Assembly (NCBI RefSeq): GCF_000820845.2
Contig: NZ_CBXV010000003.1
Coordinates: 124,001 to 188,000, forward strand
Length of the DNA stretch: 64,000 nucleotides
From: Pyrinomonas methylaliphatogenes
Lineage (GTDB): Bacteria > Acidobacteriota > Blastocatellia > Pyrinomonadales > Pyrinomonadaceae
Direction: 5' to 3'
The first letter of the stretch is position 1; each line of letters begins with the position of its first letter. Under the pieces are notes generated by a model that was given only the letters and a program-made list of their open reading frames with translations, did no database searches and was not told the DNA's origin. Made by a program: the position numbers and the translations under genes. This document shows, piece by piece, positions 22,784 to 45,943 of the stretch.

Positions 22784-23815
22784 TCACGACCTCGCCCTCT
22801 TGTAATGGACGTTCGATAGTGCGCGCAGCTCCGCCGCCTTCTCCTCCGGCGCCGTGTCGCTCAAAAAATTGCCTCCGCCGATCTCCGGCCCGGCCAAGTA
22901 CTTGAGCAAGTGCGGTTGTCGGAGCGGCGGATGGATCTCGATGTGAAAGTGAAAAGCGCGATAGTCGCCCCCGTCGGTCGGCGCCTGATGCAACACCAAA
23001 ACGTACGGAAAGGGCATCCGCCACAGATTATCGTACCGCACTAGGATCTCGCGCAGCGCGGCGGCGAAATCCCCCACCTCGCCATCGCGCAAATCGCTGA
23101 CGGACGCGCACCGCCGCTTCGGCGCAACATAGGTCTCATAGGCATAGCGCGCAAAGTAGGGGATGAAGACGATCGCCCCCTCGTTCTCGTAGATGATGCG
23201 CCGCCCATCCTCCTGCTCGGCGCGAATCACCTCCTCGAACAGCCCACGCCCACGCTCGCGCCAGTACCGCTCGCTCGCCCGCACCTCCTGCTCGATCGTC
23301 TTGAAGACAAAGTTGGTCGCATAGATCTGCCCGTGCGGATGCGGATTCGACACGCCCACCACCTCGCCCTTGTTCTCGAAGATCAACACATGCTCAACGC
23401 CAGCGAGCGCGCCAAGCTCGCGATACTGCTCCTGCCAGACGACAAGCAAACGCTCCACCGCACGCTGATCAAGCTCGGCCAGCCCAACGTTGTGCTTCGG
23501 ACTGTAGCAGACCACCCGCGCAATGCCGCGCGCCGCCCGATTCCGATAGAAACCGACCGGCGGAGGCTCCACTGCGGGAGCGTCCACAGCGACGCACGGA
23601 AAGTCGTTCTCAAACACAAAGGTGTCGACGTAGTGCGGGTTGCGCACGCCGCTGGCGCGCACGTTGCCCGGACAAAGATAACAATCCGCAACGTACGCGG
23701 GCAATTCAACCGCTTGCTCGGCTACCGTCTCGCCTTGCCACGGACGGCTCTGGCGGTGCGCGGCGACGATCACCCACTCCTCGCGTAACGGATGCCAACG
23801 CTCCTCCCAAACCAT
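22784..23815 (-). CDS. GalT-family nucleotidylyltransferase (copy 2)
   Basis: 343 aa, histidine-triad superfamily. Cys45 and Cys48 in CYLC are the zinc pair, and [10 protein letters not shown] places the nucleotidyl-accepting histidine near 161. [10 protein letters not shown] is the second conserved block. It clearly differs from copy 1 (the active site is preceded by VVGVSN, not IGVTLH), so it is an old paralogue and not a recent duplicate. It sits directly below the arabinofuranosidase genes and above the arabinokinase-like kinase. It may use arabinose-1-phosphate, or be a second galactose enzyme. I leave the symbol empty for that reason. Confidence 0.85.
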
Positions 23816-23842: not shown

Positions 23843-23938
23843 GGGACCAAGCTCGTCATCCCTCGACGCGAAAGCGATCATCTCCAACGAGCGCGATCCC
23901 ATAATTTCAAAGGCGCCAAACTCGTCACCCCTCGACGC
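23843..23938. repeat. Imperfect 27-bp direct repeat at the GH43 3' end
   Basis: Positions 23843-23869 and 23912-23938 share CTCGTCA(T/C)CCCTCGACGC with a few differences to the left. The second unit covers the GH43 stop codon and its last residues (PSGVEG). A partial tandem duplication or a dispersed short repeat is possible. Confidence 0.5.
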
Positions 23939-25004: not shown

Positions 25005-25104
25005 GCAAGAAACTTTCGATCCCGCACATACGGCTGAGGATGCGCCCGCGCGACTCGCCCCCTCGCCACACAGCCTCACTCACACTCGCGGCGCTGCGCC
25101 CCGT

Positions 25105-26784
25105 TTAAGTTAAAGACAACTGCAACCGCGTCACCGAAGCCGGACGAAAATCGTAGACCAAGACCCCGTTCGCGCCGACCTCCACCGCCTCATCGCGCGG
25201 CTCAACCGCGCGCGGATTCTCGAACGTGTTGTGCGCGTGCACATCGTCTGCGACAAGCACGCGCGCTTGCGCTCGCGCGATGCGCGCCCCGCGCACGGCG
25301 ATCTCGGTCGCGCGCGATTCAGCGAGATGCGGATTGACGACCGTCAACGTCAGGAGTTTATCGCGAAGCGAAGCCGAACCCGATAACCCCCAGAAGCGGG
25401 CCGGCTGCCCGTTGCGCCTGTAAGTGAGCGATGGCGCGGCGAAAACGGTCCGCACCGCTTGCGCCCCCATGTGCGGCATGAACATCTCGAAAACGTGATA
25501 GGTCGGCGTCAACAGGAAACGATCCTCGCGCGTGAGAAAGAGCGACTGGAGACAGTTGACGAGTTGCGCGATGTTGGCCATCACCACCTTGTCCGCGTGG
25601 CGATTGAAGGTGTCGAGCGTCAGCGCCGCGACGAGCGCGTCGCGCATCGTCGATTGCTGGCCCAGCAAGTGAGTCGGATCTATCTCCGTCCCGCTGCGAT
25701 ACCACGTCCCCCATTCATCGACCACCAATTTGACGCGATGCCGGCGATCATATTCGCCCATCACCGCCCAGTGACGATCGATGAGCGATTCGATCCGATC
25801 GGCTTCGCGCAACAGCTCATAGTACTGCTCTTCGTCGAATTTGATGGCATCGCCTTTGCCCGCGCGCCAATCCGTGGTCCGCCCGCCCGAAACGTTCCAC
25901 GAGTAATGGTGCAACCCCCAACCGTAGATGCGGTCGAACATCCATTCGCCCTTCTCGCGCGTCCGCGCGAAGAAACCGCGCGTCCAGTTGAGATCGTCGC
26001 TGTTCGCCCCTGAAGCGATGAATTTGAGATCGACGCCGTAGCTCGGCACGGCGGCGGTGAAACGGCGAAACTCCATCGCATACTCCTCGGGCGTCAGGTT
26101 CCCGCCGCATCCCCACGACTCGTTCCCGATCCCCCAGAAGCGCACGCGGAACGGCTCGCGACTGGGCACGGGGCCGCTCGCGCGAAGCTCGGCCAAAGTC
26201 GTCGTCCCGGCGGGCGCGTTGCAATATTCGACCCACTCGTAAAAGGCCTGCGCCCCGAGCCCGCGCACGTTGACCGCCAAATAAGGCTCGGCGCCAACCA
26301 ACCGGCAGAAGCGCATGAATTCGTTCGTGCCGAACTGGTTCGGCTCGAATCGTTGCGGCGCATCGGCGGGCGCGCGCATGTCCGGATCATCCACCCAAAA
26401 GTTGGTCCGGCGCGGGCGCCGTTCGCGCGCTCCCACGCCATCGCGCCAATCGTAGCTATCGGCGAAACAACCGCCAGGGTAACGGATGACCGGTGGTTTG
26501 ATGCGCTTTAGCGCTTCGACGAGCGCCGCGCGAATCCCATCGATGTTCGGCACGCTGGATCGCTCCCCAACCCAAATGCCGCCATAGATGACGCCGCCTA
26601 GATGCTCCGTGAAATGGCCGTAGATGTCCGGGTTGATCGTCGCGATCGCTTCATCGATGAGCACCTCGATGCGCGCATCTGTGGCGCGTGTCGATTGGGC
26701 CAGCACGCGCATCGGATCAACTAAGTAGATCGCACCGCATGCTCCAACGCCCTTTAGAAAGGATCGTCTCGTCACATGTTCCAT
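25105..26784 (-). CDS. Tat-exported GH51 alpha-L-arabinofuranosidase
   Basis: 559 aa. The N-terminus MEHVTRRSFLKGVGACG is a twin-arginine signal, unusual because many GH51 enzymes are cytoplasmic. IYGHFTEHLGG, RYPGGCFADSYDW, the acid/base Glu222 in WGIGNESWG and the nucleophile Glu357 in VDEWGTW define the GH51 retaining mechanism. It cleaves terminal alpha-L-arabinofuranosyl groups. A C-terminal beta-sandwich follows the TIM barrel. The start is supported by CGGAG seven bases upstream. GH43, galT2 and the arabinokinase-like gene follow. Confidence 0.94.
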   Translation of the reverse strand: MEHVTRRSFLKGVGACGAIYLVDPMRVLAQSTRATDARIEVLIDEAIATINPDIYGHFTEHLGGVIYGGIWVGERSSVPNIDGIRAALVEALKRIKPPVIRYPGGCFADSYDWRDGVGARERRPRRTNFWVDDPDMRAPADAPQRFEPNQFGTNEFMRFCRLVGAEPYLAVNVRGLGAQAFYEWVEYCNAPAGTTTLAELRASGPVPSREPFRVRFWGIGNESWGCGGNLTPEEYAMEFRRFTAAVPSYGVDLKFIASGANSDDLNWTRGFFARTREKGEWMFDRIYGWGLHHYSWNVSGGRTTDWRAGKGDAIKFDEEQYYELLREADRIESLIDRHWAVMGEYDRRHRVKLVVDEWGTWYRSGTEIDPTHLLGQQSTMRDALVAALTLDTFNRHADKVVMANIAQLVNCLQSLFLTREDRFLLTPTYHVFEMFMPHMGAQAVRTVFAAPSLTYRRNGQPARFWGLSGSASLRDKLLTLTVVNPHLAESRATEIAVRGARIARAQARVLVADDVHAHNTFENPRAVEPRDEAVEVGANGVLVYDFRPASVTRLQLSLT

Positions 26785-29853: not shown

Positions 29854-32800
29854 TCAAAAGACGAGCCGCGCGCCGACCTGTATGCGACGCGGCTGGAAGA
29901 TGTCGCCGTTGCGACCCGAGATGCCGAAGTTTACATCGTCAAGGTTCATGTTCGGCAAGGCGAATCGCCCGCGGTTGAAGAGATTGAAGAATTCCGCGCG
30001 GATCTCGAAATAGGTCTTCTCCGTCACGCGCGTCTTCTTCATGATGCTGAAGTCTTCGGTGAAGAAAGGCTGACCGCGCAAGTTGTTGTAAGTCGGCGCA
30101 GCAGTCCCGAAGAACCGCAGCGGATTCGCATAATAGGCCGCATAGGCCGGATTGACCGTCACGCCGTCGAGCGTGAACGGCGGCGCCGCGCGATAGTCGG
30201 GCGGGCGCGAGAAGGCCGCCGGGTTCAAGTAACGATAGTTGATGCCCCCCGCCGGCGTGTTCGTGTAAAACGGCTGCCCCGTTAAATTCGGGCGCAAGTT
30301 GCCGCCGACGCCCAAGATGTCGAGGAAATCGCGCTGCCCGCCGGCAATGAACGGCGTGAGCGCCGGACCGCTTCGGTAACGATGCACGCCCGCGATCTGG
30401 AACCCGCCGACCAGACGATCAATCCACCCGCCGCGGTTCAAGAACCGCTTCCCTCGCCCGAAGGGAAGTTCGATGATGTAGTTGAAGACGAGCGAATGCG
30501 GGAAGCTGTTTGGCGAAACCGCCCGCAGAGATCGCCGATCGTAAGGGTTCTGCACGACGCCGCTCAACGGCGTTTCGCCGAAGAGGTTCTCCGCCGCATC
30601 CGTAATCAACTTCGAATAGGTGTAGGAGATACCGAAGAGGAAGCCTTGCGCGAAACGTCGCTGTAGATCTACCTTCCCAGCGTTGTACCAGCTCTGCCCC
30701 TCGCTCTCCATACGGTTGTTGATCACCCGGTACTGCGGGAAAGGACGCAGCGCCTGTGCGACCGTCCCAGCCAATGTGCCCGATTGGTTAGCAAATCCCG
30801 GATAAACGGCGTTAGGATCGGTCGGCAGATTGAAACCGAGGCTCTGCGCGTAAGCCCGCTCGAGCGGCGTCAAATCGGTCAATCTCTTGGTCAAGATCGG
30901 ATAGCCTAACTTCAATGCGTTGAGCGGAATGACATTGACCGGCGCAAAGGCCGACCGCAACCGCGTCCCGTGATGGCCGTTGTAACTGACCGAAAGGACC
31001 AGCTTGAAAGGCAGTTGCCGTTGCAGGTCCAAGCTGTACTGCGCCGTGCGCCCGGCCCGGTAATTCTTGGTGAAGTAGTCTATGTCGTTCCGGTCCAGTT
31101 GCCCAACCGCCTGATCTCCCGGATCGGCGATCGGAAGCTTCGGATACGTCTCGAGCCTGATCCCGGGCGTCCCATCACCCCGCACCCATGAATCGAGGCC
31201 GAAGTTGATGTTCACCTGTCCGGGGTTGTAACCGAGCAGCCCCGTGTTGCCGAAATCGTTGTAGAGGATCGGCGCGTAGTAGAGCCCATAGCCGCCGCGA
31301 ATCACCGTCTTGCTGTCGATCGCGTAGGCGAAGCCGAAGCGCGGCCCGATCTCTGAGTGGTCAGGTTTGATCAATCCGCGATAGTCGGACTGAACCCCGC
31401 CTTGACCTGCCGCACCGGCGATCGCACCAAGACGCCCGCCCGCCGCCGGATTGCGCTTGTCCGGATCGAAGCCGCGATACCGGTCATGCGCCTCCGTGCG
31501 CGGATAATCCAGATCGTAGCGGATGCCGATGTTGAGCGTCAGTTTCGGCGTCACCTTGATGTCGTCCTGGAAGAAGACCGATGGCATGAAGAAACGCCAT
31601 CCCGGATCGACCGTCTGCAAGCTGTTGAAAGAGAATTCGGGGGCGCCGACAATCAGACTCGCAATCGGCCATCCCTGATTGAAATCGTTCGTATTGGCCG
31701 TCTGATTGCTCCGGAAATTCAAATTCCCTCCGATGTCGAACTTCTGCGAGACGTTGAGCTGTTGGATGCGCACGTCCGCCCCGAATTTCAACGTATGACG
31801 GCCCCGCACGTAACTGACGGCATCGCTGATCTCCGTTGTGTTATCGGCCGTGCGATTGTCAAAGTATGTCGAACCGCCGGGCTGATAAGCGCGCGGATCG
31901 GGACTGGTTACAGGATCGCCGTAAAGCGGGAAACCGATGAGCGGCAACCCCAGATTCTGCGTCGTTCCCGGCGGCATCCCCAAACTCTCAGCCGTTATCC
32001 CGCGCTGGAAACTCGGACCGATCTGCAGGTGATTCCGCAGACTCGAATAGTTGCGGTTCTCTACGTCCGTCCGGTTGAACGCCAGATTGAAATGGTTGAG
32101 CAACGTCGGCGTTAACGTCCAATCGTGCTGCAACCGCGCGTAGTAGGAACGGAACTGCTGCTGCCACACGCCTTGCGCGACGAACGGTGGCGGAAAACGC
32201 GGGAAGCCCCCTTTGATGCTCGGCAACTTACGGAAGATATAGCTGAAGTTGAGCTGTTGCCGGTCGGTCAAAGTGTGCGTGATCTTGGTCACGTAGTAGT
32301 TAGTGATAGCTTCGGCCGTGCTGCTCGCCAAGTAGTTGTGATAAACGGTCGAGCCCAGCGGCCCAGTCGTGTTCGGCAACGGGAAGAGATTAACGAAGTT
32401 CTGCCCGATGCGGCTGATCAAAGCGCCGCCATCGTAAAGATCGAGCCGGTTGCCCGGAATGGGCACGCGCTGCCCCGGCGGACGGCGCGGATCGTAAATC
32501 TGGACCGGCCCGCCGAAGAACTGTAGAACGTAAGGATCGGTCAGAAGCTCCGAAAAATCGCCCCGCCGCATCTTCGCCGTCGGGACGCTCACAAAGACGT
32601 TCTCGCTCTGTGAGGTGCGATACCCGCCGTAGTTGAAGAAGAAGAAGGTGCGGTTCTTGCCGCTCCAGTACGCCTTTCCGCCCTCACCGAAACGCGGCAG
32701 GTAGACCGGTCCACCGATGCTGAACCCGTAATCGAACTGCCGATCGCGCGGCTTGGGAAGCCCCTGCAAACGGTTCAGATCGATGTTCGCGTTGAGCGCT

Positions 32801-33609
32801 TCGTTCCGATGAAAGAGATAAGCCTCGCCGTGGAAATCGTTGCTCCCGGTCTTGATCGTGAAGTTCACGATCCCGCCCGAAGATTTGCCGTACTCCGCCG
32901 AATAGTTGTTCGTCGTGATCGTGAACTCCTGAAAGGCGTTCGGGCCGGGCGCGACTTCGGAAAAATATGTGCCGTTCTCCGCTCGCCGCGTGCCCGCCCC
33001 GTCGATCAAGATGTCCGTTCCGAGCGCCTGTCCGCCGCCGACCCGAAAGCGCGTCGCGTTCGTCCCCGTGCTGCCCGCCGCATCCTCGCCCGGCGTCACG
33101 CTGCTATCGAGAAAGATGAACGCGAGCGGCGTCCGCCCGCCTGATTCCGCCGCCACGAGCAACGGTAACTCCCGCACCTGCCGCTCCGTCACGTTGAGCT
33201 GCTGCGCGGGACTGTCCGTCTGCAATAACGATGCCTCCGCCGATACGGAGACGGTTTCGCCAAGCTGGCCCACCTCTAACTTGACATCGGCACGCCGCGT
33301 CACCTGCACGGCGACTTGTATCCGATCGATCGTCGCCGTCTTGAACCCCGGCGCTTCGACCGACAAGCGATATGGTCCAGCGCGTAATTCCGACAAAATG
33401 TAGCTCCCTTCTGCCGTGGTTCTCGTCTCGCGCGTCTCGCCCGTCTCCAAATTGGTCACCGTCACTTTGGCGTTGGCGACGACCGCACCTTGCGGATCGG
33501 TCACCGTGCCGGTGATCGCCCCGCGGTCGCTTTGCGCCGACGCAAGCGAAAAACAGCTTAGAACGGCGGCGAGAACCGACGCGAGCCCTAAAAGAGTGCG
33601 GGTTCTCAT
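29854..33609 (-). CDS. TonB-dependent receptor with CarboxypepD_reg domain (receptor 1)
   Basis: 1251-aa outer-membrane receptor. A signal peptide (MRTRTLLGLASVLAAVLSCF onward) is followed by the carboxypeptidase-regulatory-like domain (GAITGTVTDPQGAVVANAKV, to about residue 110), a plug (GGIVNFTIKTGSNDFHG) and a long beta barrel ending in Phe. GGAGG five bases before the ATG at 33609 fixes the start. It heads the arabinan/galactose locus and probably imports oligosaccharides, by analogy with SusC-like receptors. Acidobacteria carry many such proteins. Substrate inferred from neighbours. Confidence 0.93.
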   Translation of the reverse strand: MRTRTLLGLASVLAAVLSCFSLASAQSDRGAITGTVTDPQGAVVANAKVTVTNLETGETRETRTTAEGSYILSELRAGPYRLSVEAPGFKTATIDRIQVAVQVTRRADVKLEVGQLGETVSVSAEASLLQTDSPAQQLNVTERQVRELPLLVAAESGGRTPLAFIFLDSSVTPGEDAAGSTGTNATRFRVGGGQALGTDILIDGAGTRRAENGTYFSEVAPGPNAFQEFTITTNNYSAEYGKSSGGIVNFTIKTGSNDFHGEAYLFHRNEALNANIDLNRLQGLPKPRDRQFDYGFSIGGPVYLPRFGEGGKAYWSGKNRTFFFFNYGGYRTSQSENVFVSVPTAKMRRGDFSELLTDPYVLQFFGGPVQIYDPRRPPGQRVPIPGNRLDLYDGGALISRIGQNFVNLFPLPNTTGPLGSTVYHNYLASSTAEAITNYYVTKITHTLTDRQQLNFSYIFRKLPSIKGGFPRFPPPFVAQGVWQQQFRSYYARLQHDWTLTPTLLNHFNLAFNRTDVENRNYSSLRNHLQIGPSFQRGITAESLGMPPGTTQNLGLPLIGFPLYGDPVTSPDPRAYQPGGSTYFDNRTADNTTEISDAVSYVRGRHTLKFGADVRIQQLNVSQKFDIGGNLNFRSNQTANTNDFNQGWPIASLIVGAPEFSFNSLQTVDPGWRFFMPSVFFQDDIKVTPKLTLNIGIRYDLDYPRTEAHDRYRGFDPDKRNPAAGGRLGAIAGAAGQGGVQSDYRGLIKPDHSEIGPRFGFAYAIDSKTVIRGGYGLYYAPILYNDFGNTGLLGYNPGQVNINFGLDSWVRGDGTPGIRLETYPKLPIADPGDQAVGQLDRNDIDYFTKNYRAGRTAQYSLDLQRQLPFKLVLSVSYNGHHGTRLRSAFAPVNVIPLNALKLGYPILTKRLTDLTPLERAYAQSLGFNLPTDPNAVYPGFANQSGTLAGTVAQALRPFPQYRVINNRMESEGQSWYNAGKVDLQRRFAQGFLFGISYTYSKLITDAAENLFGETPLSGVVQNPYDRRSLRAVSPNSFPHSLVFNYIIELPFGRGKRFLNRGGWIDRLVGGFQIAGVHRYRSGPALTPFIAGGQRDFLDILGVGGNLRPNLTGQPFYTNTPAGGINYRYLNPAAFSRPPDYRAAPPFTLDGVTVNPAYAAYYANPLRFFGTAAPTYNNLRGQPFFTEDFSIMKKTRVTEKTYFEIRAEFFNLFNRGRFALPNMNLDDVNFGISGRNGDIFQPRRIQVGARLVF

Positions 33610-33736
33610 CTTCCCCTCCAAAGAATTTGGGTCGAAACTACACTGGAGACCTCGGACCTTCGCCTCGTTGGCGCGCAATCGCCCGCCTCAAAGCCTGCAA
33701 GCCTTTTAACGGCGCAAACGATCAATAAGCGTGCTC

Positions 33737-33990: not shown

Positions 33991-35085
33991 TCAGTTCAGA
34001 TCCTCGGCGAAAAGGCTCAAGTTGCTGCGAAAGATGATGTGCGGGGTCAACCTGATGCGCGGCGGGGGATGCACGCCTTCGGTCAAATATCTATACAGCG
34101 CTTCGAAGGCGATCTTGCCCTGCGTTTTGGGTCGCTGGTGAATCGTCGCCACGATCTTACCCGATTGGATAAGCGGCACCATCTCCGGAAATAGGTCTGT
34201 AGTGATGAGCGCTACGCGGTCCTCCTGATCGACATCTTCCAGTGCCCGAATCACCCCCAACGAGTTGGCCGTGCTTACGTAGATCGCTTTGAGTTTCGGA
34301 TCTTGGCGCACCAAACTCACGGTCGCTTGATAGGCTAGCTCCTCGTCATCCCGCGCTTCTATTACTTCAGTCAGTCGCAAACGATCGCCCGATAGCTTTA
34401 AGCCATATTTGAAGCCCCGCAACTTGTCCGCATGATCGACCGTCAGTAGATCACCGGTGATAACGGCAGCAGATCCTTCCTGAGAGACCACCTTATGAAA
34501 TAGCTCGCCCGCGATCGCGCCGCTCGTGAAATGATCGACCGAAACGGTCGTCAACCGCTCTGTTCCTGGAGCGTCGGTCGAGACATATACAACCGGTATC
34601 TTCAATTCGCTGGCCCGTCGAAGCATCTCTCGCAACTCCGCCGGATGGCCGGGCGCCATGATGATGCCTCTCACTCCCTCCGTTAAAGCTTGCTCGAGCA
34701 CGACCGTTTCCCCTTCACCCAGTTTCGGATGCGACTTGAAACTTAATGAAACGGCCATGTCGAAAGGCTTTGCGGCCTCCTCGATCCCGCTGCGGATCTT
34801 ATCCCAGAAGAGCGCTATCTCTGCGGGCAAGTGGATCGAGATGCGAAGCGCTTTGGGCTTCTTGAGGTATCTGGCCGCCAAGTTCGGCTGGTAACCGAGC
34901 GCCTCAGCGATGCGCAAGATGCGTTCTCTCGTGGCTTGACTGATGCGCCCCCGGTTGTGTAACGCCCGGTCCACAGTCGCAATCGAAACGCCCGAAGCCT
35001 CAGCGATATCTTTGACACCAACCGATCTTTGTCTACGATGCTCAAGGCGATCGCCGTCGGGATGAACTCTCTTCTGCGATGACAT
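33991..35085 (-). CDS. LacI-family transcriptional regulator
   Basis: 364-aa DNA-binding regulator. The helix-turn-helix VKDIAEASGVSIATVDRALH (about 24-43) is followed by the hinge region and a sugar-binding domain of the periplasmic-binding-protein fold (VRGIIMAPGHPAELREML, LRGFKYGL, VALITTDLF). It sits between GH172 and receptor 1 and is the only regulator in the sugar locus, so it likely senses a locus sugar. Its first codons are contained in a 24-bp repeat that also occurs 66 bp upstream. The N-terminus before the helix-turn-helix is about 20 residues longer than usual. Confidence 0.92.
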   Translation of the reverse strand: MSSQKRVHPDGDRLEHRRQRSVGVKDIAEASGVSIATVDRALHNRGRISQATRERILRIAEALGYQPNLAARYLKKPKALRISIHLPAEIALFWDKIRSGIEEAAKPFDMAVSLSFKSHPKLGEGETVVLEQALTEGVRGIIMAPGHPAELREMLRRASELKIPVVYVSTDAPGTERLTTVSVDHFTSGAIAGELFHKVVSQEGSAAVITGDLLTVDHADKLRGFKYGLKLSGDRLRLTEVIEARDDEELAYQATVSLVRQDPKLKAIYVSTANSLGVIRALEDVDQEDRVALITTDLFPEMVPLIQSGKIVATIHQRPKTQGKIAFEALYRYLTEGVHPPPRIRLTPHIIFRSNLSLFAEDLN

Positions 35086-35376: not shown

Positions 35377-36471
35377 TCATCTGATCGGGACGACGTTCCA
35401 GCGATCGATTGGCAATCGTTCGGCGACTGGCGGAAGCGGCGGAAAACGTTTGTGCGGCTCGGTCTGATACCAATACGCGACCGATGAATAATCGTCACTG
35501 CGATCGTTGGCATGTCCGTGTTCGATAGTTACGCGCAACGATCTATCGAAAGTGATCGGATCCTCTATGTGAAAGCGGTACATCGAGTGGCGTCCCGTAT
35601 AATCGGCATTCCCCTTGCGCGAGTAGCCAAAATACGGGAAGTTATACTCGCGATTGAGCAGATTGAAGTTCCAGGCACCGCAAAAATAATCTTCAAGCCC
35701 GGTGCCGTTCAACGTCGGTTTCGCGTCGCCGTCGATGAAGATCATGTCATCGCCTTCGCCCCACCAGTCGGTCGCTAACCCTTGAATATGTAACACGACG
35801 CCGACATACTGCCCCCGCCCCGCAGCGTCCAAGATCAAATAGTTCTGCGCTCCATCAAGATTGGGCCGGCCATCGGTCGCCTTCGTGATCTGACGATTCC
35901 ACCACGCATGAAAACGGCCTTGCCGCTCGGTCGCCAACGCCTCAGCCGATCCCGGCGCGTATGATTCGTAATCTATCTGGTAGTAGAAAGCCTTGACCGG
36001 TTGCGCCCCTTGATTTTCGATCTCGATGCGCGCGCGCCGTGAGAACGGCATCGGGAAGAAGCAGTTGAGCGCGCGGTCGGCGACCGCGAGCGGCACGCTG
36101 GCCCAGTAATATGGCTCGCCAAAACCGAGGCCGAAGAAATCCCCGATCGGAGCCTCGATGCTCGGGTCGGTTTCGTCATCCCAATAAGCGCGCAATACGA
36201 TGCGGCGCAAATAGTACCTCTCATCCGAGGCAATCGTCATCCAGATATGCGTGATCGTTCCCGATCCTCGGATATCAGCGAGAACGACGCGCTGGCCCGG
36301 CCCGATGTTCTCTAAAAAATCGTGATTGCCGCCAGTTCGATCATAACTCGAAACGCGCAACCTCTTGACCCCTTCGCGTAAATTAGCGAGGTTGCGCAGA
36401 AGGCCAACCTGCCCGCGAACGGGTACGACCGCACCCAATAGAACCATCAACCAAACAGCCCCAATCCTCAT
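35377..36471 (-). CDS. Exported DUF2961/GH172-family protein
   Basis: 364 aa with a signal peptide (MRIGAVWLMVLLGAVVPVRG). The family motifs SSYDRTGGNHDF near the N-terminus, LNGTGLEDYFCGAWNF and YRFHIEDPITFDRSLRVTIEHGHAND are clear. The glutamate of GTGLEDYF is the expected catalytic residue. DUF2961 enzymes are now classed as GH172 and include difructose-anhydride hydrolases and D-arabinofuranosidases. It follows the 961-aa putative glycosidase by about 50 bp. The exact sugar is unknown, but an arabinofuranose or fructofuranose substrate fits the locus. Confidence 0.88.
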   Translation of the reverse strand: MRIGAVWLMVLLGAVVPVRGQVGLLRNLANLREGVKRLRVSSYDRTGGNHDFLENIGPGQRVVLADIRGSGTITHIWMTIASDERYYLRRIVLRAYWDDETDPSIEAPIGDFFGLGFGEPYYWASVPLAVADRALNCFFPMPFSRRARIEIENQGAQPVKAFYYQIDYESYAPGSAEALATERQGRFHAWWNRQITKATDGRPNLDGAQNYLILDAAGRGQYVGVVLHIQGLATDWWGEGDDMIFIDGDAKPTLNGTGLEDYFCGAWNFNLLNREYNFPYFGYSRKGNADYTGRHSMYRFHIEDPITFDRSLRVTIEHGHANDRSDDYSSVAYWYQTEPHKRFPPLPPVAERLPIDRWNVVPIR

Positions 36472-36519: not shown

Positions 36520-39405
36520 CTAATCGCCTATCGTTTCTACCGAGTCCGTATACTCCGCCTCCACGTTGTCGAAGAAAAGACCTTGAAACTGTCCGGGACG
36601 GAGCGTGAGCGGTAACCACAGTTCCACACTATGTTCCCGGTCCGGCGCGATCTGCGATAGGTCGACGTACCAACCAACAAATGAAGGCCCATGAACCCGT
36701 ACCGAACTGTAGGCCCTCTTCAACTCAAGCGGTCTTCCGTCGAGCTTCAGACTCACCACCATCTCGTCTTTCGGCTCGGCCATCTGCACGAACAGGAGCA
36801 AGCGTTCGGGCACGAGCCATGTCGTCTCAAGATCCTCTCTCGTCCACCGAATCGGCCACCTCGCCCGGCGCCGCGCCAACTGCTCGAAGACGCGACCGGG
36901 GATCGTAAAGGATCCGACCATGTGCGCGCCACAAGCATCCATGCCGACCTCTTTTAACTCGATCTGCCGCGAAAACGCTGCGCCGCGAAAGCGCACCGGA
37001 ACGGCGACGAAACGCCCTCGTTGAGCGAATCTCATCTTCTCGCCGTTGACCATGACTTCGCGAACTGGCGAGCCCTCTTCCGGCAAGCGTACCAGAAGCT
37101 CGACGGAACTCCCCACCTCGCCGCGAACGCCCGTGATCACGAGCCTCCCTTGGGAGAAGCGCGCTTCGCCCGGCGCACCGAAAAGCAAAGTTTCTCGGCT
37201 TCGCTCATCCGCCGGCGCGATCTCAAGGACGCGCGCGCTTGTTCCGGCTAGCTCCAGTTCGACCGCGTCGCCATAGTCCCACACGCCACTTCCCGGCTTA
37301 CCCACCAACATGCCCGCAAGCGGTTCGAGTTCGCGGAGCAAGTACCGTCCGCGCTCGCTCAAGCCTAGCGACTCATCGAGCCGAAGAGTGATGGACGTCC
37401 GTTTGTAGTTGGGATTGAAAAGGAAGATGAAGCCGTGATCTTTGTCGATGGCCGCCGTCCCATCCACTCGACCGATCATCGGTGGGCCTGTGATGCTTCG
37501 CGTATGGCGCAACGTTTCCTTATTTTCTTCCGTCCAATCCAACCACCGGCGGAACCATCTCTTATCTTCTTCGGAAAAATGCTCATACTCCTCCGCGTCG
37601 CGCCCCGGAATCATGTTGACGACGTTATTCCAGCCAGCCGTCCCGATCGAGGAGAGCAGTGAATACTTCCACCCGAGGTAGTCCCAATCGCGCCGCCTAT
37701 ATGCGTCGGGGACGAACTCTGCGACCTCGATCGTTCGTCCATCCGCAAGCGTGCGCTTCACGTTACGACTGCGCTCCGTCTGGTGCGTGATGTAACCGGG
37801 CAACACCTCCGTCGGAGCGAACATGAAGTTCCGGTACCAGTAGGCGACGTACCGCTGCCGATTGGCCGAAACGCGATCGAAATGTAGATCGGGGAAAGGC
37901 GTGAAACTTTCCGGTTGCTCATCATTGCCGGTCGGGTGCGGATATGTCCCCGCCAACCAAGACCACGGACCGTAGAGATGGTAGGACTGCCGACCATCGA
38001 TGACGATCCCGGGCAGCGCCCGCCGCAAACGCTCCATCACGCGCCGCCAACCCCACCACTGCGCATAGGAACTGCTGCCCGGATAGGTCATGAAGGTGTA
38101 GTCGAAAGAATAACCGCCGATGCCAGTGCGTTTAGCAAACGTCACCAGCATATCGACCAGGTGATCTTGAAACTCGCGCGAAGCGAGGGTGGCCGCCTTC
38201 GCTTCCGCATTCCGCCCGCCGGCGGGGACGATCCATTCGGGATTACCGACAAACGGCAACGACGGATAGACGTAAGCGAGCAACCGGATCCCTTTCGAAC
38301 GCGCGTAAGCGATCATCTCCTGCACTTCGGGCGGGATCGGACCAGAGCGCACATCCCACTCGCCGCGCCGTATCTTCTGCCCGAGACCGAGCCAGAGCAC
38401 GTATTCCCACTTCCAATCGTCTACGCTATCCTCGCGCCTCGCAAGGTTTGAATCAGATGGCGCAAACAGTAGGTGAGTGATGCCGAGATCAGCCGCTGTG
38501 TCGATCACGCGCTTGTACTCCTCTCTACCTTGCGGCGTGGCGATGTCGATCTGGTAATCGTTGAGCGTCCAGCCGACCAACACCCGTGATGGACGCTTCG
38601 GTGGATCGATCAAAAAAGCGCGGACGCATGCTGTGAACGCTTCGACCTCAGCTACATCGTACCCGTCAACGCCAGACCCCGGCGGAGGAAGTCTCCACTC
38701 TGGTACCATCGCTCTCGGCAGATGCCGACCGCTCAGCGAGTAAATGCCGAAACAGCCGCGATCGGAGACGAATTCCCCGTAACTTCTCTGCCAATCCATC
38801 TCAGGTTCGTAAGAAAGGTTAACTGTGCGTCCTTGGCGATGGACCGTCAGATACGGGTTCTGCACGACCAAGAGAGCTCCGCGCCCCCCAGGGAAGCGAA
38901 GGAACGCGCCGTACTCGCGCGTCGGCAAACGGGGAGTTCCGCCCAAATGCGGCGTGTAGGTCCCGGGAACGAGCAACTCCGAAATCTCATCTTGGAAAGC
39001 AAGCCGAAAGAGTTCAATGCGGCTCACATGAAATCGGTTTGAAGGGACTCTCTTGAGAACGATCCTTTTGCTGACGAAATGCCAGCCAGGCTCCACCTCA
39101 TAGATGACATCGAGACCGAACGCGGAACCGGCGTAGTGGTAAACGGCCCTATTGGAAGTAGCTTCGATCCTTCGCAGCTCGAGTTCCGTGCTGCGGAAAA
39201 TTTCACCGTTGACGGAGATCAAACTCCCATCTTCGAGCAAGCGCAACGTAACGCCTGACTTTAGATCCGTAATGGCGCTCATGCCGCGCTCATTAAGTCC
39301 CACACCGATCAAGCCGTTGGAGATCGCAACTCGCCTCTCCACGGCAAAGGCGATAGCGTGGCTTAAATGAAAAACCAGGATGACCAATAAAAATCTAACG
39401 AGCAT
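36520..39405 (-). CDS. Large exported putative glycoside hydrolase, not assigned
   Basis: 961 aa from MLVRFLLVILVFHLSH, a signal peptide; GGGGAGG six bases before this ATG fixes the start. An N-terminal beta-sandwich (about 25-270) leads to a TIM-barrel-like region (GWTLNDYQIDIATPQGR, LGITHLLFAPSDSN). Two candidate catalytic aspartates, GGYSFDYTFMTYPG and GIVIDGRQSYH, resemble the clan GH-D layout of alpha-galactosidases. Two or more C-terminal beta domains follow. I cannot name the family. It is next to GH172 and the regulator, so a galactan or arabinogalactan target is plausible. Confidence 0.7.
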   Translation of the reverse strand: MLVRFLLVILVFHLSHAIAFAVERRVAISNGLIGVGLNERGMSAITDLKSGVTLRLLEDGSLISVNGEIFRSTELELRRIEATSNRAVYHYAGSAFGLDVIYEVEPGWHFVSKRIVLKRVPSNRFHVSRIELFRLAFQDEISELLVPGTYTPHLGGTPRLPTREYGAFLRFPGGRGALLVVQNPYLTVHRQGRTVNLSYEPEMDWQRSYGEFVSDRGCFGIYSLSGRHLPRAMVPEWRLPPPGSGVDGYDVAEVEAFTACVRAFLIDPPKRPSRVLVGWTLNDYQIDIATPQGREEYKRVIDTAADLGITHLLFAPSDSNLARREDSVDDWKWEYVLWLGLGQKIRRGEWDVRSGPIPPEVQEMIAYARSKGIRLLAYVYPSLPFVGNPEWIVPAGGRNAEAKAATLASREFQDHLVDMLVTFAKRTGIGGYSFDYTFMTYPGSSSYAQWWGWRRVMERLRRALPGIVIDGRQSYHLYGPWSWLAGTYPHPTGNDEQPESFTPFPDLHFDRVSANRQRYVAYWYRNFMFAPTEVLPGYITHQTERSRNVKRTLADGRTIEVAEFVPDAYRRRDWDYLGWKYSLLSSIGTAGWNNVVNMIPGRDAEEYEHFSEEDKRWFRRWLDWTEENKETLRHTRSITGPPMIGRVDGTAAIDKDHGFIFLFNPNYKRTSITLRLDESLGLSERGRYLLRELEPLAGMLVGKPGSGVWDYGDAVELELAGTSARVLEIAPADERSRETLLFGAPGEARFSQGRLVITGVRGEVGSSVELLVRLPEEGSPVREVMVNGEKMRFAQRGRFVAVPVRFRGAAFSRQIELKEVGMDACGAHMVGSFTIPGRVFEQLARRRARWPIRWTREDLETTWLVPERLLLFVQMAEPKDEMVVSLKLDGRPLELKRAYSSVRVHGPSFVGWYVDLSQIAPDREHSVELWLPLTLRPGQFQGLFFDNVEAEYTDSVETIGD

Positions 39406-39766: not shown

Positions 39767-42700
39767 ATGATGAACCTTTCGGGCACGCTTAAATTTCAAC
39801 TAGCAGAGCATCGCTATCTGCTCGGCGTTTTGTTGCTCACCGCGATCGCTTTCATAGTTCAGGCATCGAGCACACCGGCGATGGCGCAGGCGACAGCAAG
39901 CAGCTCGCTCGCCGGAACCGTCAAAGATATCAAAGAGGCCGTCATCCCGGGAGCAACCGTCACCGCTACCAACGTCGCGACCGGACTGACCCGTACCACC
40001 ACGACGAACGAAGAGGGAGCATATCGGATCGAACTTCTGCCCGCAGGAATCTACACGGTCAAAGTGACGGCCCCAGGCTTCGCGGAAGCGGTAGCGGAAA
40101 GGGTCGAATTGCTCGTCGGCAAGACTAACACCCTTGATTGGACCTTATCGCCCAGCGCCCGCTCAGAGACGGTCACCGTCACGAGCGATGTCCCGCTGTT
40201 GGATCAGCAAAAGACTGACGTCAGTCTCAATATCACGCCTAATGACGTACAAGATCTTCCGCTCAACGGCCGCGATCTTGGCAATCTCGCCTATCTCGCC
40301 CCCGGAGCCAAACCCGTTGACGCTTATGACCCGACCAAAAGGCGCATCGCCGTCTTCGGCATCAACGGTTCTTCGGGACGCAACGTCAACGTCACCGTCA
40401 ACGGGATCGATAACAAAGACAACACCGTCGGTGGACCGGTCATGCAATTCCCTCTGGAAGCCATTCAGGAGTTCGTCATCAGCACGCAGCGTTTTTCTGC
40501 GGCTAATGGGCGGAGCGAAGGCGCCGCGGTTAATGTCGTGACGAAATCGGGAGGGAAAGAGTATCACGGCTCAGCCTTCTTTTTCGTGCGCGACCGCAAG
40601 TTGAACGCGGCTGAAGTGACCCCTCCGGCAGTTAGCACCAAGCAGAAACCGCCGTTCAACCGCAAGCAGTGGGGCGGATCCATCGGTGGACCGCTTTATC
40701 TGCCGCGTTTCGGTGAAGGTGGCCCGACACACTGGACGCTCGGACGCAAGACCTTCTTCTTCTTCGCCATCGAAAGACAGTCCGAGGAAACCTCAATCCC
40801 TGTCGCCAGCGACGCTTTAGCCGAGCTGAATCTGGTCACATCCCTCGGCGCCAAACCGGCCCCCGTCATCCCGACTCCCTATCACGACTGGCGCGTCAAC
40901 GCGCGCATCGATCACACGTTCAACGCCAAGCACAGCATGTTCGTCAGCTTCAGCGAACAATCCAACCTCGGGCTGAACGATCAGTCGGGACAGAGGAACG
41001 ATCTCACTCAAGGCAACTTTACGAAGAACAAGCTGTTGCTCGGCAGCTTTACGCTCAACTCGACCTTCACCAGTCAGGTAGTCAATGCTCTGACGATCGG
41101 CTATCAATACTGGAATAACCTGATCGACTCGGAACAGAAGGTACCCACTTTCGTCTTCCCCACCGGCATATCTTTCGGCACGAACACCAACGTTCCGCAG
41201 CAGTCTTATCAAGCGAAGTATCAGTTCAAAGACGATCTTTCAATCGTCCACGGCAACCACACCTTCCGCGTTGGATTCGACTACGTGTGGGAACCGAAAT
41301 TAGGAGGATTTTTTGAGTTCAATCCGACGCTCGAGCTGGATTTTCTCGACCTACCGAGCGTGATCCTCTCCAACAAGACGAAATATCCACAAGGCTTTGC
41401 GACGCCCGGCGCCGTCATCGGCATGTCCGCCACGGCCGGCAACCCGTATTTCGACTTGCCAGGCGGGGCGAAGATGTTCGGCGTCTATTTCCAAGATGAC
41501 TGGCGTGTGACGCGCCGGTTGACGCTCAACCTCGGCCTTCGCTGGGACAAAGATTTCAATCTGATCGGAACGAAAGCGCAAGCGAAAAGCCGCACGTACC
41601 TCTTCCTTAAAGCGATCAACCACCCGGCCGCTAGAGCTCTGCCGCACGATGACAATCACGGTTTTAGCCCGCGCGTTGGCTTCGCTTGGGATCTTTTCGG
41701 GACCGGACGACACATCGTCCGCGGCGGTTACGGTATCTACTTCGGCCAAACCTTCCTTAACATCCCGCTCTTCATGATCCAACAATCGAACCCGACTATC
41801 TTCGCTACCGTTTTCGCTATCAGCAGCGCGGGCCCAGGTGACCCGACCGCCGACATCGTTCCCGGAACTGGGATCAGGCTTTCGGCTTGGCGTTTCGGCA
41901 TCGATCCGCTCCCCATCATTCCACCGCCGCCAACCAACCTTACGCCTGGCAGCACCGGGCGCATCATGGACCCGGATTATCGCAACCCATACACGCAGCA
42001 GTGGAACATAGGTTACGCTTGGCAACCCAACTCCTACTCAGTGATCGAAGTCGATTACACGCATGTGCTCGGCTTGCATGAGTCGAAGACGCTCAACATC
42101 AACCCGCAACTACGCTTCATCAATGAATCGGCGGCGCGACCGCTCGATGCCGCTTTCACCGCAGCCGGATTGCCTCTATTGGGTCGCATCGATCTAGAAG
42201 CTTCTGTCGGACGCTCCCGCTACGACGGATTGAACGTCGCCTACCGACGTCGCCTTCACCGGAACTTCACTTTGAACGCCAGCTACACGCTCTCCAAAGC
42301 GACCGCATATAACGGCAACGCGGCGGCGTTTCGCAATCGCCCCTTTAATCCCTTCAACTACTTCGCCCCTTATGAATACGGCCCGACGCCGAACGATTCG
42401 CGCCATCGCTTCGCTGCAAGCGGAGTCATCAATCTGCCAGCCGGTTTCCAACTGGCCCCGATCATACAACTCGAATCGGCACGCCCCTACACAGCGGGAT
42501 ACGGCGCGCTCGATGTGCTCGGTGTCGGCAGCGGGCGAGGCACGTCGCACGTCATCGTCTTCAACGATCGCCCGACCGATCTGTTCGCAACTTTCAACGC
42601 TTTCGGCACAGCAACTAAAAGCTATCGCGATTGTCTGCGAGCCGGACAGTGCTCGATCTTGCCGTTCGACAATCTGCGCGGGCAACCCTTCTTCCAACTC

Positions 42701-42922
42701 GACCTGCGCGTAGCTAAGAACTTCAAATTCAAGGAAAGGTCCACTCTAACCTTGATCTTTCAGGCTTTTGACCTGACCAATCGGGCAAATTTCGGCAACA
42801 ACTATGGGGGAGACATACGCAATCTGAGCACCTTCATGAAACCAGTTGGGTTCATCACTCCAACCGGAGTGATCATCCCACACAGCTTCTCCGGTGAAGT
42901 CGGAGTGAAGGTCTCATTCTGA
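39767..42922 (+). CDS. TonB-dependent receptor with CarboxypepD_reg domain (receptor 2)
   Basis: 1051-aa outer-membrane receptor. A signal region near residues 18-42 ends at TPAMAQA. The regulatory-like domain (SSLAGTVKDIKEAVIPGATV) runs to about 130. The plug has DLPLNGRDLGNL and GAAVNVVTKSGGKEYHG, and the barrel ends in Phe (GEVGVKVSF). GAGGAGG lies seven bases before the ATG. It is divergent from the glycosidase gene at 36.5-39.4 kb. Import substrate unknown; proximity to the sugar locus suggests glycans. Receptor 3 follows in the same direction after about 125 bp. Confidence 0.93.
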   Translation: MMNLSGTLKFQLAEHRYLLGVLLLTAIAFIVQASSTPAMAQATASSSLAGTVKDIKEAVIPGATVTATNVATGLTRTTTTNEEGAYRIELLPAGIYTVKVTAPGFAEAVAERVELLVGKTNTLDWTLSPSARSETVTVTSDVPLLDQQKTDVSLNITPNDVQDLPLNGRDLGNLAYLAPGAKPVDAYDPTKRRIAVFGINGSSGRNVNVTVNGIDNKDNTVGGPVMQFPLEAIQEFVISTQRFSAANGRSEGAAVNVVTKSGGKEYHGSAFFFVRDRKLNAAEVTPPAVSTKQKPPFNRKQWGGSIGGPLYLPRFGEGGPTHWTLGRKTFFFFAIERQSEETSIPVASDALAELNLVTSLGAKPAPVIPTPYHDWRVNARIDHTFNAKHSMFVSFSEQSNLGLNDQSGQRNDLTQGNFTKNKLLLGSFTLNSTFTSQVVNALTIGYQYWNNLIDSEQKVPTFVFPTGISFGTNTNVPQQSYQAKYQFKDDLSIVHGNHTFRVGFDYVWEPKLGGFFEFNPTLELDFLDLPSVILSNKTKYPQGFATPGAVIGMSATAGNPYFDLPGGAKMFGVYFQDDWRVTRRLTLNLGLRWDKDFNLIGTKAQAKSRTYLFLKAINHPAARALPHDDNHGFSPRVGFAWDLFGTGRHIVRGGYGIYFGQTFLNIPLFMIQQSNPTIFATVFAISSAGPGDPTADIVPGTGIRLSAWRFGIDPLPIIPPPPTNLTPGSTGRIMDPDYRNPYTQQWNIGYAWQPNSYSVIEVDYTHVLGLHESKTLNINPQLRFINESAARPLDAAFTAAGLPLLGRIDLEASVGRSRYDGLNVAYRRRLHRNFTLNASYTLSKATAYNGNAAAFRNRPFNPFNYFAPYEYGPTPNDSRHRFAASGVINLPAGFQLAPIIQLESARPYTAGYGALDVLGVGSGRGTSHVIVFNDRPTDLFATFNAFGTATKSYRDCLRAGQCSILPFDNLRGQPFFQLDLRVAKNFKFKERSTLTLIFQAFDLTNRANFGNNYGGDIRNLSTFMKPVGFITPTGVIIPHSFSGEVGVKVSF

Positions 42923-43048
42923 ACCGCTGTAAACAGAGGCGACTCTCTCAAGTAGCCCTGAAGCTAGCTGCAGGGTGGCAAGCGATTGACAGTCTGAGCG
43001 AGATCAACTACAAACCATTTGCCTGCTAGCTTTCCGGGCACGAGCGTG

Positions 43049-45943
43049 ATGGGCACGCAACAGGCTTCGCCGATGAGAAACAAGGCGCAGGCGCGCCGGA
43101 CGAGCGCGATCACCTTGAAGCTGCTCGCGCTCATGGTCATCTGGCCTGCGCCCTTAACGATACGACAGATCTCGGCAACGCAAGCTTCGCTCATCGGCAG
43201 CGTTCGCGAGCCGACCGGCGCGCCCGTCGCTGACGCGCGCATCATCGCGCGTCACCTTTCGGCCGGGCAGGAACGGAGCGTGTCGAGCGACGCCGAGGGG
43301 AACTACAGATTCTCTTCGCTACCCGTCGGCGAATACGAAGTTCGCGCCGAAGCCAAAGGCTTCGCCACATATATCAATCGTTCGATCACTCTGCACGTCG
43401 GCAGCGCGACGCGCCTAGACATAGTTCTGCAACCTCTCGCGATCAGCGCCGAGGTCACCGTCACGGAACGAGCCTCACCGCTCGACCCGACACAAACAGC
43501 GACGACGACCACGATCGAACCCGAACAGATTGAAGAACTCCCAATTAACGATCGCAACTACTTGCAATTCGTCCTCCTCGCCCCCGGAGTCGTCGCAGCC
43601 AATCCAGCGGGAAGCGCGCTGCCCTATGACGGCTTCAGTTTCGGCGGCTTGAGACCTCATAGCAACGCCATCTCGATCGACGGACTAGATAACACGGATG
43701 AGACGACCGGCGAAGCGCGCGTGGCGCTATCGCCGGAGATCGTGCGCGAGTTCCAAGTAGTCAACAACGGCGTGTCGGCTGAATTCGGCGGCTTCGCCGG
43801 AGGAAGCATCAACGTTGTGACGAAGACGGGGACGAATCAATTCCACGGAGATCTGTTCACCTTCCTCCAACACGAACGTTTGAATGCGCGCGAACCATTT
43901 GCGGAAAACGGGGCGCGTCCGCGCTTTCGTCGCTTCCAACCCGGATTCTCCTTGGGCGGTCCGCTCAGGCGCGATCGCCTCTTCTTCTACATGGCCGCGG
44001 AGCAAGAACGCCTCGCGGGCGAAGATGTATCGGATGTCGCTCAAACGGTGCAAGCCAGGTTCAATGCTATACTGGCCGACGATAGACGTTTAGCGAAGAT
44101 ACTTCCATTCAGCGAACGCTTCCCGACAGGGCGGCGCGAGACAGAAGCCGCAGGCAAGCTGACGTGGCTCATCACCCCCATGCACACGCTTCATCTCCGT
44201 TATGCTTACACTCTGGACCGGTCGCGCGCCGCCACATTCAACGCGGATCTACCCACTGACCGGACGGCGCGCGGCGATCGTTCGACGCTGGACCATCAAG
44301 CGACGGCCAACTTGATCTCGACTCTTTCAGCGTCGCTGGTCAACGAACTGCGCTTGCAGTGGAGTCGGCGGCGCGCGTCAATCGCCGAAGACGCGCGCGA
44401 GGCAGGTTTCGAAATCGTCGGGATAGCGCGCGCGGGACGCCCCCTTGGGACGCTTGGCAGCCGACGTGAAGACCGGCAACAAATGATCGAGACCGTCACC
44501 CTAGGGCGCTCGCGCCATGAATGGAAGGCAGGAGCAAGCATCAATCACGTCTCTTTGCGAAGCGCGCTGGATGATGGCTTCGGCGGATACTTCATCTTCC
44601 GCACGTTGGACGATCTATTGGCCGGACGCCCCGCCGTGTGGCGCCAGGCGTTTGGCGACCCGCATACCGAACTGGCTGTGTTAAGCTTCGGCGCTTTCGC
44701 GCTGGACCAGTGGCGCCCATCTTCCCATCTCACTCTGAATCTGGGCGCGCGCTACGATATGGAACGCCTGCCGACTCCATTTCGCACCACACGCGGTGGC
44801 ATCAGTCCGCGCCTCGGTCTGGTCTGGAACATTTCGGACCGCACGCTCGTAAGGACCAGCTTCGGGATCTTTCGCGACCGGCTGCCGCTCGCTTTCGTCA
44901 ACCGCGCGCGGCAACTCGATGGCCGACACGCTTTCGTGCAGATCGCGGAAGATTCCGACGCCGCGCGCATCTACGGCGCGATAGGTTTATCGGCGGCTTC
45001 CGCTCCCTTCGCCGAAATCAGACCGTCCATCTACCGCCCCGATCCGCGATTTGTCATGCCGTATAGCCTGCAAACCGGTTTCGGCATCGAGCGCATGGTC
45101 GCTGCGGATACCACGTTGCGCGCCGATTACCTGTTCGTCCGCGGACTTCACCTGCCGCGGACGCGCAACGTCAACCTTTTGCCACCCGTGATCTTTACCG
45201 CGGACTTGACCGCGCCGCTCGGAGTGTTCGAACCCACTCCGCAGCAGGCGGGGCGCCCGGTCTTCAGTCGAGCGCGCCTTGATCCGCGCTATGATGCCAT
45301 CTATCAACTGGAAGACAGCGCCAGTTCCCGTTATCATGGATTGACGCTCGCGCTCAATCGCAGGTTCAGCGACGAATTCGCGTGTCTCGTCTCCTACACT
45401 CTGGCGCGCGCCACCGACGACGCTTCGGATTTCGATGAGCAACCGCCCAATCCTTTCGATTTGCGGAGCGACTGGTCCAGTTCACGTGAAGATCTGCGCC
45501 ACCGCCTCGCCGTGAGCGCGCTCTTCGATCTGCCGTTTGCCGAAGAGAAGGAAAGCGGTTGGCCGATGAAGATTTTCAAACACGTCGAAGTCGCCCCCAT
45601 CGCGACGTTCAGCAGCGGGCGACGCGCCAATCCGCTCACAGGAAGCGACGAAGAGCGAAGCCTCGCCTTCCCGCCTAGTTCGCGCCCGCTGGGGGCGCGG
45701 CGCAACTCGCTGCGCGCGCCCGCGAATTTCAACGTCGATCTGCGGGTTATCCGTTACTTCCCTTTCGGCCCGACGCGCCGCTTCGATCTCGTGGCCGAGT
45801 TCTTCAACCTCTTCAACCATCCGAACGCGCTCACGGTCAATCCCTTTTACGGCTCAAGCAAAAGTCCATTGCCGAGCTTCGCTTCACCAGTTCTATTCTC
45901 AACCTCACGCCAAATCAGATTATCTCTCGATTTGGAATTCTAA
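43049..45943 (+). CDS. TonB-dependent receptor with CarboxypepD_reg domain (receptor 3)
   Basis: About 964-aa outer-membrane receptor. After a basic N-terminus a hydrophobic signal (LKLLALMVIWPAPLTI) is followed by the regulatory-like domain (SLIGSVREPTGAPVADARI), a plug (EELPINDRNYLQFVLLAPG, GGSINVVTKTGTNQFHG) and a barrel ending in Phe (LSLDLEF). The start is uncertain: ATGs at 43049 and 43073 and a TTG at 43019 are in frame, and none has a strong ribosome site. It shares layout but little sequence with receptor 2. Likely cotranscribed with it. Confidence 0.9.
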   Translation: MGTQQASPMRNKAQARRTSAITLKLLALMVIWPAPLTIRQISATQASLIGSVREPTGAPVADARIIARHLSAGQERSVSSDAEGNYRFSSLPVGEYEVRAEAKGFATYINRSITLHVGSATRLDIVLQPLAISAEVTVTERASPLDPTQTATTTTIEPEQIEELPINDRNYLQFVLLAPGVVAANPAGSALPYDGFSFGGLRPHSNAISIDGLDNTDETTGEARVALSPEIVREFQVVNNGVSAEFGGFAGGSINVVTKTGTNQFHGDLFTFLQHERLNAREPFAENGARPRFRRFQPGFSLGGPLRRDRLFFYMAAEQERLAGEDVSDVAQTVQARFNAILADDRRLAKILPFSERFPTGRRETEAAGKLTWLITPMHTLHLRYAYTLDRSRAATFNADLPTDRTARGDRSTLDHQATANLISTLSASLVNELRLQWSRRRASIAEDAREAGFEIVGIARAGRPLGTLGSRREDRQQMIETVTLGRSRHEWKAGASINHVSLRSALDDGFGGYFIFRTLDDLLAGRPAVWRQAFGDPHTELAVLSFGAFALDQWRPSSHLTLNLGARYDMERLPTPFRTTRGGISPRLGLVWNISDRTLVRTSFGIFRDRLPLAFVNRARQLDGRHAFVQIAEDSDAARIYGAIGLSAASAPFAEIRPSIYRPDPRFVMPYSLQTGFGIERMVAADTTLRADYLFVRGLHLPRTRNVNLLPPVIFTADLTAPLGVFEPTPQQAGRPVFSRARLDPRYDAIYQLEDSASSRYHGLTLALNRRFSDEFACLVSYTLARATDDASDFDEQPPNPFDLRSDWSSSREDLRHRLAVSALFDLPFAEEKESGWPMKIFKHVEVAPIATFSSGRRANPLTGSDEERSLAFPPSSRPLGARRNSLRAPANFNVDLRVIRYFPFGPTRRFDLVAEFFNLFNHPNALTVNPFYGSSKSPLPSFASPVLFSTSRQIRLSLDLEF

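Follow-up and report, generated by a model that had tools for sequence, protein, structure and literature searches.

A Probable Secreted Glycosidase of Unassigned Family with a GH36-Like Predicted Fold in Pyrinomonas methylaliphatogenes

Arabinogalactan side chains bear alpha-D-Galp-(1-3)-L-Araf and beta-L-Arap-(1-3)-L-Araf units, and glycoside hydrolase (GH) family 36 contains enzymes for both the alpha-Galp and the beta-L-Arap caps (PMC10688797). PMC1249566 assigns the nucleophile of the superfamily to the C-terminal end of barrel strand 4, and PMC6089974 gives D327 as the nucleophile and D387 as the acid/base of the GH36 enzyme TmGalA. Here we describe a gene whose product resembles these enzymes in predicted fold and is unassigned by sequence. 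It lies on the minus strand at positions 36520-39405 of the window, a stretch of 64,000 nucleotides from P. methylaliphatogenes (assembly GCF_000820845.2, contig NZ_CBXV010000003.1, positions 124,001 to 188,000). With moderate confidence, we read its product as a probably secreted, exo-acting glycosidase of the clan GH-D type (GH36-like) whose substrates are plant glycans rich in arabinose and galactose.

The initial annotation of this stretch reported the reading frame without its strand. The translation on the minus strand gives 961 residues and a stop, and the plus strand of the same interval is interrupted by stops in the corresponding frame. The sequence GGGGAGG stands just 5′ of the ATG. 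The frame is more than a product of chance, because homologues 43-52% identical to it occur in other genomes. Its start reads, by eye, as the signal peptide claimed in that annotation (Table 1), and the protein is probably secreted.

Like the initial annotation, we could not place the protein in a family. “Unassigned” is meant relative to Pfam, NCBIfam and PDB sequences; dbCAN/CAZy models were not among the libraries compared. For the 961-residue protein, the top Pfam line is AP_endonuc_2 at 11.7 bits, below the cut-off of 31.1, and an identity as an AP-endonuclease/xylose-isomerase barrel was dropped on that score. NCBIfam gives no match, and the PDB sequence search returns a single meaningless line, 1izm at an E-value of 0.24, which was likewise dropped as a relative. 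When 13 family members (query included) were scanned singly with Pfam, four scattered lines appeared, the best with E-values of 0.04-0.3; none of the 13 matches Melibiase (PF02065), the GH27 and GH31 models, or GH97. Family profiles of 13 and 28 rows find no PDB chain at E <=1 and <=10, respectively. The strong match to a known GH family that the initial annotation had named as grounds for refutation is absent from these searches. Among the titles and abstract openings listed by our literature searches, with subscription journals mostly outside them, there is no account of such a glycosidase family, and a search of plasmid records gave no match. Unassigned families in known superfamilies turn up regularly, and we consider this one credible within a well-known superfamily.

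We obtained two AlphaFold models: model 1 from 12 sequences (mean predicted local distance difference test [pLDDT] 77.0; predicted template modelling score [pTM] 0.81) and model 2 from 28 sequences with the signal removed (mean pLDDT 76.2; pTM 0.79). Both have the architecture that had been proposed from the translation, with a beta-sandwich first, then a (beta/alpha)8 barrel, then C-terminal beta domains, the last together occupying residues ~635-946. The barrel strands start at about residues 273, 311, 374, 431, 468, 488, 536 and 593 in both models. In a Foldseek search of the PDB, the GH36 chain 2yfn ranks first for both models (4.3e-18 and 3.3e-19). With model 2, rows 1-22 are all alpha-galactosidase or FpGalactosaminidase chains, followed by GH101 and GH97. 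The tool VIA, for which the best 50 entries per model were listed, aligns GH36 chains (SpAga, AgaA, AgaSK and others) at Z-scores of 15-16 and a root-mean-square deviation (rmsd) of 4.2-4.6 A over approximately 545-566 residues, with 9-13% identity; by comparison, the tool's own note cites Z 7-8 as the usual top score of models that lack a clear match. The GH36 match spans residues 20-733, which comprise the sandwich, the barrel and the first C-terminal domain. FpGalactosaminidase reaches Z ~15 at an rmsd of ~8 A, and cellobiose phosphorylases reach Z 14-15 with the sandwich alone matching. The structure prediction that the initial annotation had proposed as a check yields a GH36-like fold, in agreement with its suggestion that the protein may belong near clan GH-D. 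Overall, our results confirm its observation and support its interpretation. That the fold is GH-D-like and the mechanism clan-like is the part of our reading in which we have good confidence.

The two well-placed aspartates of the initial annotation are Asp435, directly after barrel strand 4, and Asp495, after barrel strand 6, in both models. That annotation had also named their loss from homologues as a point that would tell against it, and we find both residues invariant in all 28 aligned members. Their spacing of 60 residues equals that of D327 and D387 in TmGalA (PMC6089974). We predict that Asp435 is the nucleophile and Asp495 the acid/base of a retaining enzyme that acts on an axial glycoside. 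In such a double displacement, Asp435 would attack the anomeric carbon, and Asp495 would give and then take the proton.

The family is conserved and patchily distributed. After removal of overlaps, we count 31 clear members, among them the query and one sequence from a metagenome-assembled genome (MAG); contig ends truncate a few. Our alignment A3 comprises 28 of them (four rows partial) at 44-52% identity to the query. It omits G170, which is cut and contains N, G695, which is split, and G701, where the match is short and partial. A scan of genome contigs for close relatives gave 27 pattern matches, one of which was confirmed: the Terriglobia MAG, at 51% identity. In the phylum sample, 16 of 396 genomes have a match. 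Thirteen are clear (own genome included), G382 has a pair of fragments, and G188 and G240 have distant relatives. The own genome is the only carrier among the 162 genomes of its class. In the class to which G362 and G054 belong, 11 of 193 genomes have the family; matches occur in 27 of 142 genomes of the class of G072 (16 clear, 11 weak and C-terminal) and in 3 of 15 in the order of G203, one of them distant. A maximum-likelihood tree places the query in a group of nine (support 100/100) that also contains the Terriglobia MAG sequence and seven members from the G362 class; the query forms a long branch, and its exact placement is unsure. This grouping and the single carrier in the own class suggest that the gene was acquired from outside the class. 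Its G+C content at third codon positions is 0.68, compared to 0.69-0.79 for the genes at 11172-33678; the ranges almost touch, and the lower value does no more than hint that the gene arrived later.

Two loci are unusual in their gene structure. In G382, L034 (10201-11088) and L015/L018 retain the N-terminal sandwich (query residues 2-254) and, in another open reading frame (ORF), the last 60 residues, with no barrel match; this locus is apparently a decayed copy of the family gene. In G593 (L049, 6235-10560, minus strand), the family gene lies in one open frame with approximately 490 upstream codons, the start of which (VTGASGYVGG) resembles a nucleotide-sugar epimerase. This is either a fusion or an assembly error.

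The locus around the gene is listed in Table 1. The adjacent gene encodes a DUF2961 (GH172) protein, as the initial annotation had it. Past this gene, and still on the minus strand, the LacI-family regulator comes next, then an outer-membrane carrier, then a TPR protein and a 449 amino acid protein without clear family; GH51, GH43 and the galactose and uptake genes follow, down to 11169. Among the latter, the 344 amino acid ORF (21678-22712) has no match in NCBIfam. The locus thus has a complete set of Leloir genes as well as genes of arabinofuranosidase type. No recognised galactosidase is found in it among the Pfam families listed (25 of 41) for the 25 ORFs scanned, or among the GH genes scanned singly.

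Table 1. Features of the window; coordinates are window positions, and roles are predicted
Feature	Position	Strand	Evidence
Putative secreted retaining glycosidase, unassigned family, 961 aa	36520..39405	-	translation, homologues, AlphaFold models, Foldseek
Signal-peptide-like N-terminus MLVRFLLVILVFHLSHAIAFA, residues 1-21	39343..39405	-	read by eye; helix 2-19 in model
N-terminal beta-sandwich, residues ~26-223	38737..39330	-	AlphaFold strands; cellobiose phosphorylase sandwich also matches
(beta/alpha)8 barrel, residues ~270-600	37606..38598	-	both AlphaFold models, structure searches
Asp435 codon (predicted nucleophile), immediately following barrel strand 4	38101..38103	-	strand 431-434; hhalign with A5 KWD; invariant 28/28
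Asp495 codon (predicted acid/base) in motif DEQPES, following barrel strand 6	37921..37923	-	after strand 488-489; invariant 28/28
First C-terminal beta domain, residues ~648-732, end of GH36 structural match	37210..37464	-	model and VIA
Further C-terminal beta domains, residues ~740-946	36568..37188	-	both AlphaFold models
DUF2961 (GH172) gene, 51 bases past stop of glycosidase-like gene	35377..36471	-	Pfam, E 7e-89
LacI-family regulator; homologue 53% identical beside G362 member	33991..35085	-	Pfam, BLAST
Two carriers of the outer-membrane beta-barrel type, diverging from the glycosidase-like gene; carboxypeptidase-regulatory-like domains	39767..45943	+	Pfam tally: each domain in 3/25 ORFs
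Third outer-membrane beta-barrel carrier	29854..33678	-	Pfam tally
GH51-type alpha-L-arabinofuranosidase	25105..26784	-	PF06964, 4e-45
GH43; good PDB matches including secreted alpha-L-arabinofuranosidase (3akf) and beta-xylosidases	23925..25079	-	Pfam, PDB
Leloir/uptake run: galK, galT, sugar permease, galM, ABC ATPase, two binding proteins, galE, GHMP kinase, 344-aa ORF, second galT	11169..23815	-	Pfam, NCBIfam, PDB

Three further details of the locus may be recorded. The GHMP kinase (20179-21669, minus strand; 496 amino acids), near the second galT, is GalK-like and matches PDB entry 9ulx, “AbGHMP,” at an E-value of 1.5e-179; the galactokinase models score it below their cut-off. We take it to resemble plant L-arabinokinase, which would be a hint of a Leloir-like route for L-arabinose. 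The tandem sugar-binding proteins (17098-19271, minus strand) are 88% identical over 283 residues and represent a duplication. A perfect hairpin, TTTGGCTGAAGAGCCAAA, lies at 39455-39472, between the glycosidase-like gene and the divergent carrier. A LacI operator at this hairpin was considered and dropped: the window holds one perfect copy, and 2 matches at <=3 mismatches compare to 1.81 expected.

We are also interested in the company that the gene keeps in other genomes. Of the 31 clear members, 22 were examined with their surroundings, the window and the MAG among them; some of these stretches are just a few kilobases long. Most neighbouring ORFs elsewhere were compared solely by BLAST with the window proteins, and 40 proteins from other genomes were scanned with Pfam (35 near clear members, 3 by the G382 remnant, and L035 and L036, described below). 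In G362, a sodium-solute symporter, galK, galT, a carrier and the LacI homologue precede the family gene. The commonest glycosidase partner seen elsewhere is GH127: it adjoins the family gene in G072, G216, G272 and G364, occurs near it together with GH51 in G054, and lies <=8 kb away in G583, where there is also a symporter-like gene. A GH127 search of 12 genomes with the family gene (1-13 matches per genome) found it adjacent in five and within 8 kb in one more; four of these six genomes belong to one genus, and the independent cases amount to three lineages. GH51 is beside 1 of the 21 other members. A fucosidase-type gene is near the member in G569, and a GH2-type gene is approximately 5 kb from that in G203.

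In the simplest role that we can give it, the enzyme would remove an axial cap from arabinogalactan-type side chains, either alpha-D-galactopyranosyl or the configurationally equivalent beta-L-arabinopyranosyl. With the cap gone, the GH51, GH43 and GH172 enzymes would have access to arabinofuranosyl residues; the removal would also feed the Leloir genes of the locus. That the cap is one of these two sugars is possible, and our confidence in it falls somewhat short of even.

A number of findings weigh against this reading or parts of it. The GH36 criteria that we used, DDGW and KxD, were taken from PDB GH36 chains: DDGW occurs in 0 of the 28 members, and position 433, two before the predicted nucleophile, is S in 23, A in 4 and C in 1, with lysine in none. 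The galactose motifs of GH36 being absent, galactose need not be the substrate sugar. Residues 265-640 contain 19 invariant acidic residues, and the choice of D435 and D495 rests on strand position, because the 17 others are equally invariant. Strand 6 is only two residues long in both models, and the loop at 491-512 that follows it, with Asp495, has pLDDT <50. In the hhalign comparisons, the family scores 1.8% with one GH36 segment and 0.6% with the Melibiase-family protein of its own genome, neither of which is significant. The structure searches contain other families at high rank: with model 1, GH101 chains take Foldseek ranks 3, 6 and 9 (GH97 appears from rank 18), and the alpha-N-acetylgalactosaminidase NagBb takes VIA ranks 2-3 at Z 16.1-16.2, at an rmsd of ~8 A. 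In the surroundings of the 21 other members, homologues of the window's galactose genes turn up for one (G362) and a GH172 homologue for none. Finally, the Melibiase-family protein just mentioned (Pfam, 50.9 bits) is encoded on another contig, and the locus therefore need not supply a galactosidase.

Part of this evidence bears on a second explanation, in which the GH-D-like fold and mechanism are kept and the enzyme either removes another sugar (arabinofuranosyl, fucosyl, glucosyl or uronosyl) or is endo-acting. We consider this rather unlikely, and it is the alternative that survives best. Room must be left for other sugars because the recognition residues are changed in all 28 members and because GH127, the commonest partner, is a beta-L-arabinofuranosidase-type family; the fucosidase-type neighbour of one member points the same way, and the high Foldseek ranks of the endo-acting GH101 would suit an endo-enzyme. 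On the other hand, the window and G362 loci tie the family to galK and galT, and the best structural matches are galactosidases, which is weak evidence for specificity.

Could the family simply be a very divergent part of GH36 (or of GH27, GH31 or GH97), which CAZy would file in an existing family? The domain order and best fold match are those of GH36, and there is an indirect profile link. Eleven uncharacterised Melibiase-like sequences (L036, L073-L078 and L080-L083; alignment A5) were reached via weak C-terminal matches, and their BLAST matches to the query are confined to its C-terminal part, at 24-31% identity. In hhalign, A5 matches A3 at 97.2% (E 4e-11) over the barrel and the C-terminal domain, with D435 on the D of KWD. 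The A5 profile finds alpha-galactosidase chains in the PDB (best 2xn0, 3e-9). A5 retains both DDGW and KWD in 11 of 11 sequences, whereas DDGW is absent throughout the query family. Moreover, no Pfam model reaches its cut-off with the query family, NCBIfam is silent, the 28-sequence profile has no PDB match at E <=10, and identity in the structural alignments is 9-13%. GH36 membership fails on the sequence tests run; that the protein works like GH36 is our best reading, and outright membership in a known family seems to us unlikelier than a change of substrate. A catalytically dead or non-hydrolytic relative (a binding protein, or a transglycosidase such as the raffinose-synthase types) is very improbable: GH36 includes transferases and its motifs are changed here, but neither carboxylate varies among the 28 members, nor does a dense group of barrel residues, the locus is degradative and the start is signal-like.

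The search also brought up other relatives. The one A5 member scanned (L036, 7929-10514) reaches just 22.9 bits to Pfam Melibiase, and A5 is possibly another undescribed GH-D branch. A third related branch is represented by L035 in G188 (5742-7868; 709 amino acids, uncharacterised), which has no Pfam or PDB match. It aligns with the query family in hhalign at 99.8% (E 1.5e-27, 611 columns, 23% identity). Its DE pair falls on D495-E496, the alignment near D435 is loose, and it is too short to contain the extra C-terminal domains of the query.

Returning to the GH36-like glycosidase that we favor, we tentatively suggest, with less confidence than we have in the reading as a whole, that it is the founding example of a new GH family that belongs to clan GH-D or stands next to it. 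The specificity would be new to the clan and directed at a cap sugar of plant glycans rich in arabinose, and the family is found so far in a single bacterial phylum, outside which the search covered one contig scan and plasmid records. If this is true, the clan gains a family with altered sugar-recognition residues. The protein is a concrete target for expression: two catalytic residues are predicted, and the substrates to try are few. Annotators could also name genes that Pfam and NCBIfam models leave unnamed.

How does the family compare with the described ones? The likeness to GH172 is that of an adjacent gene only; the GH172 fold is of the jelly-roll type and unrelated to that of the query. 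The GH101 endo-alpha-N-acetylgalactosaminidases match in Foldseek at E-values of 3e-17 to 1e-13 with 8-10% identity, but their rmsd is ~20 A over the chain, only parts fit, and they are absent among the best 50 VIA rows. For NagBb, from Bifidobacterium bifidum, Z falls to 14.7 with model 2. GH97 enzymes (SusB, a GH97 alpha-galactosidase and the beta-L-arabinopyranosidase 5xfm) have a similar three-part fold, with Z ~13-14.5 and Foldseek E-values of ~1e-13 to 1e-15, at a larger rmsd of 6-7 A. The closest comparison is with the GH36 alpha-galactosidases AgaSK, SpAga, AgaA and TmGalA. The query family lacks a sequence-level match to them and their DDGW and KxD motifs, and the query carries approximately 200 extra C-terminal residues with beta domains; it has in common with them the order of sandwich, barrel and beta domain and an Asp after strand 4, and in the models, within the loop of low pLDDT, an Asp also follows strand 6.

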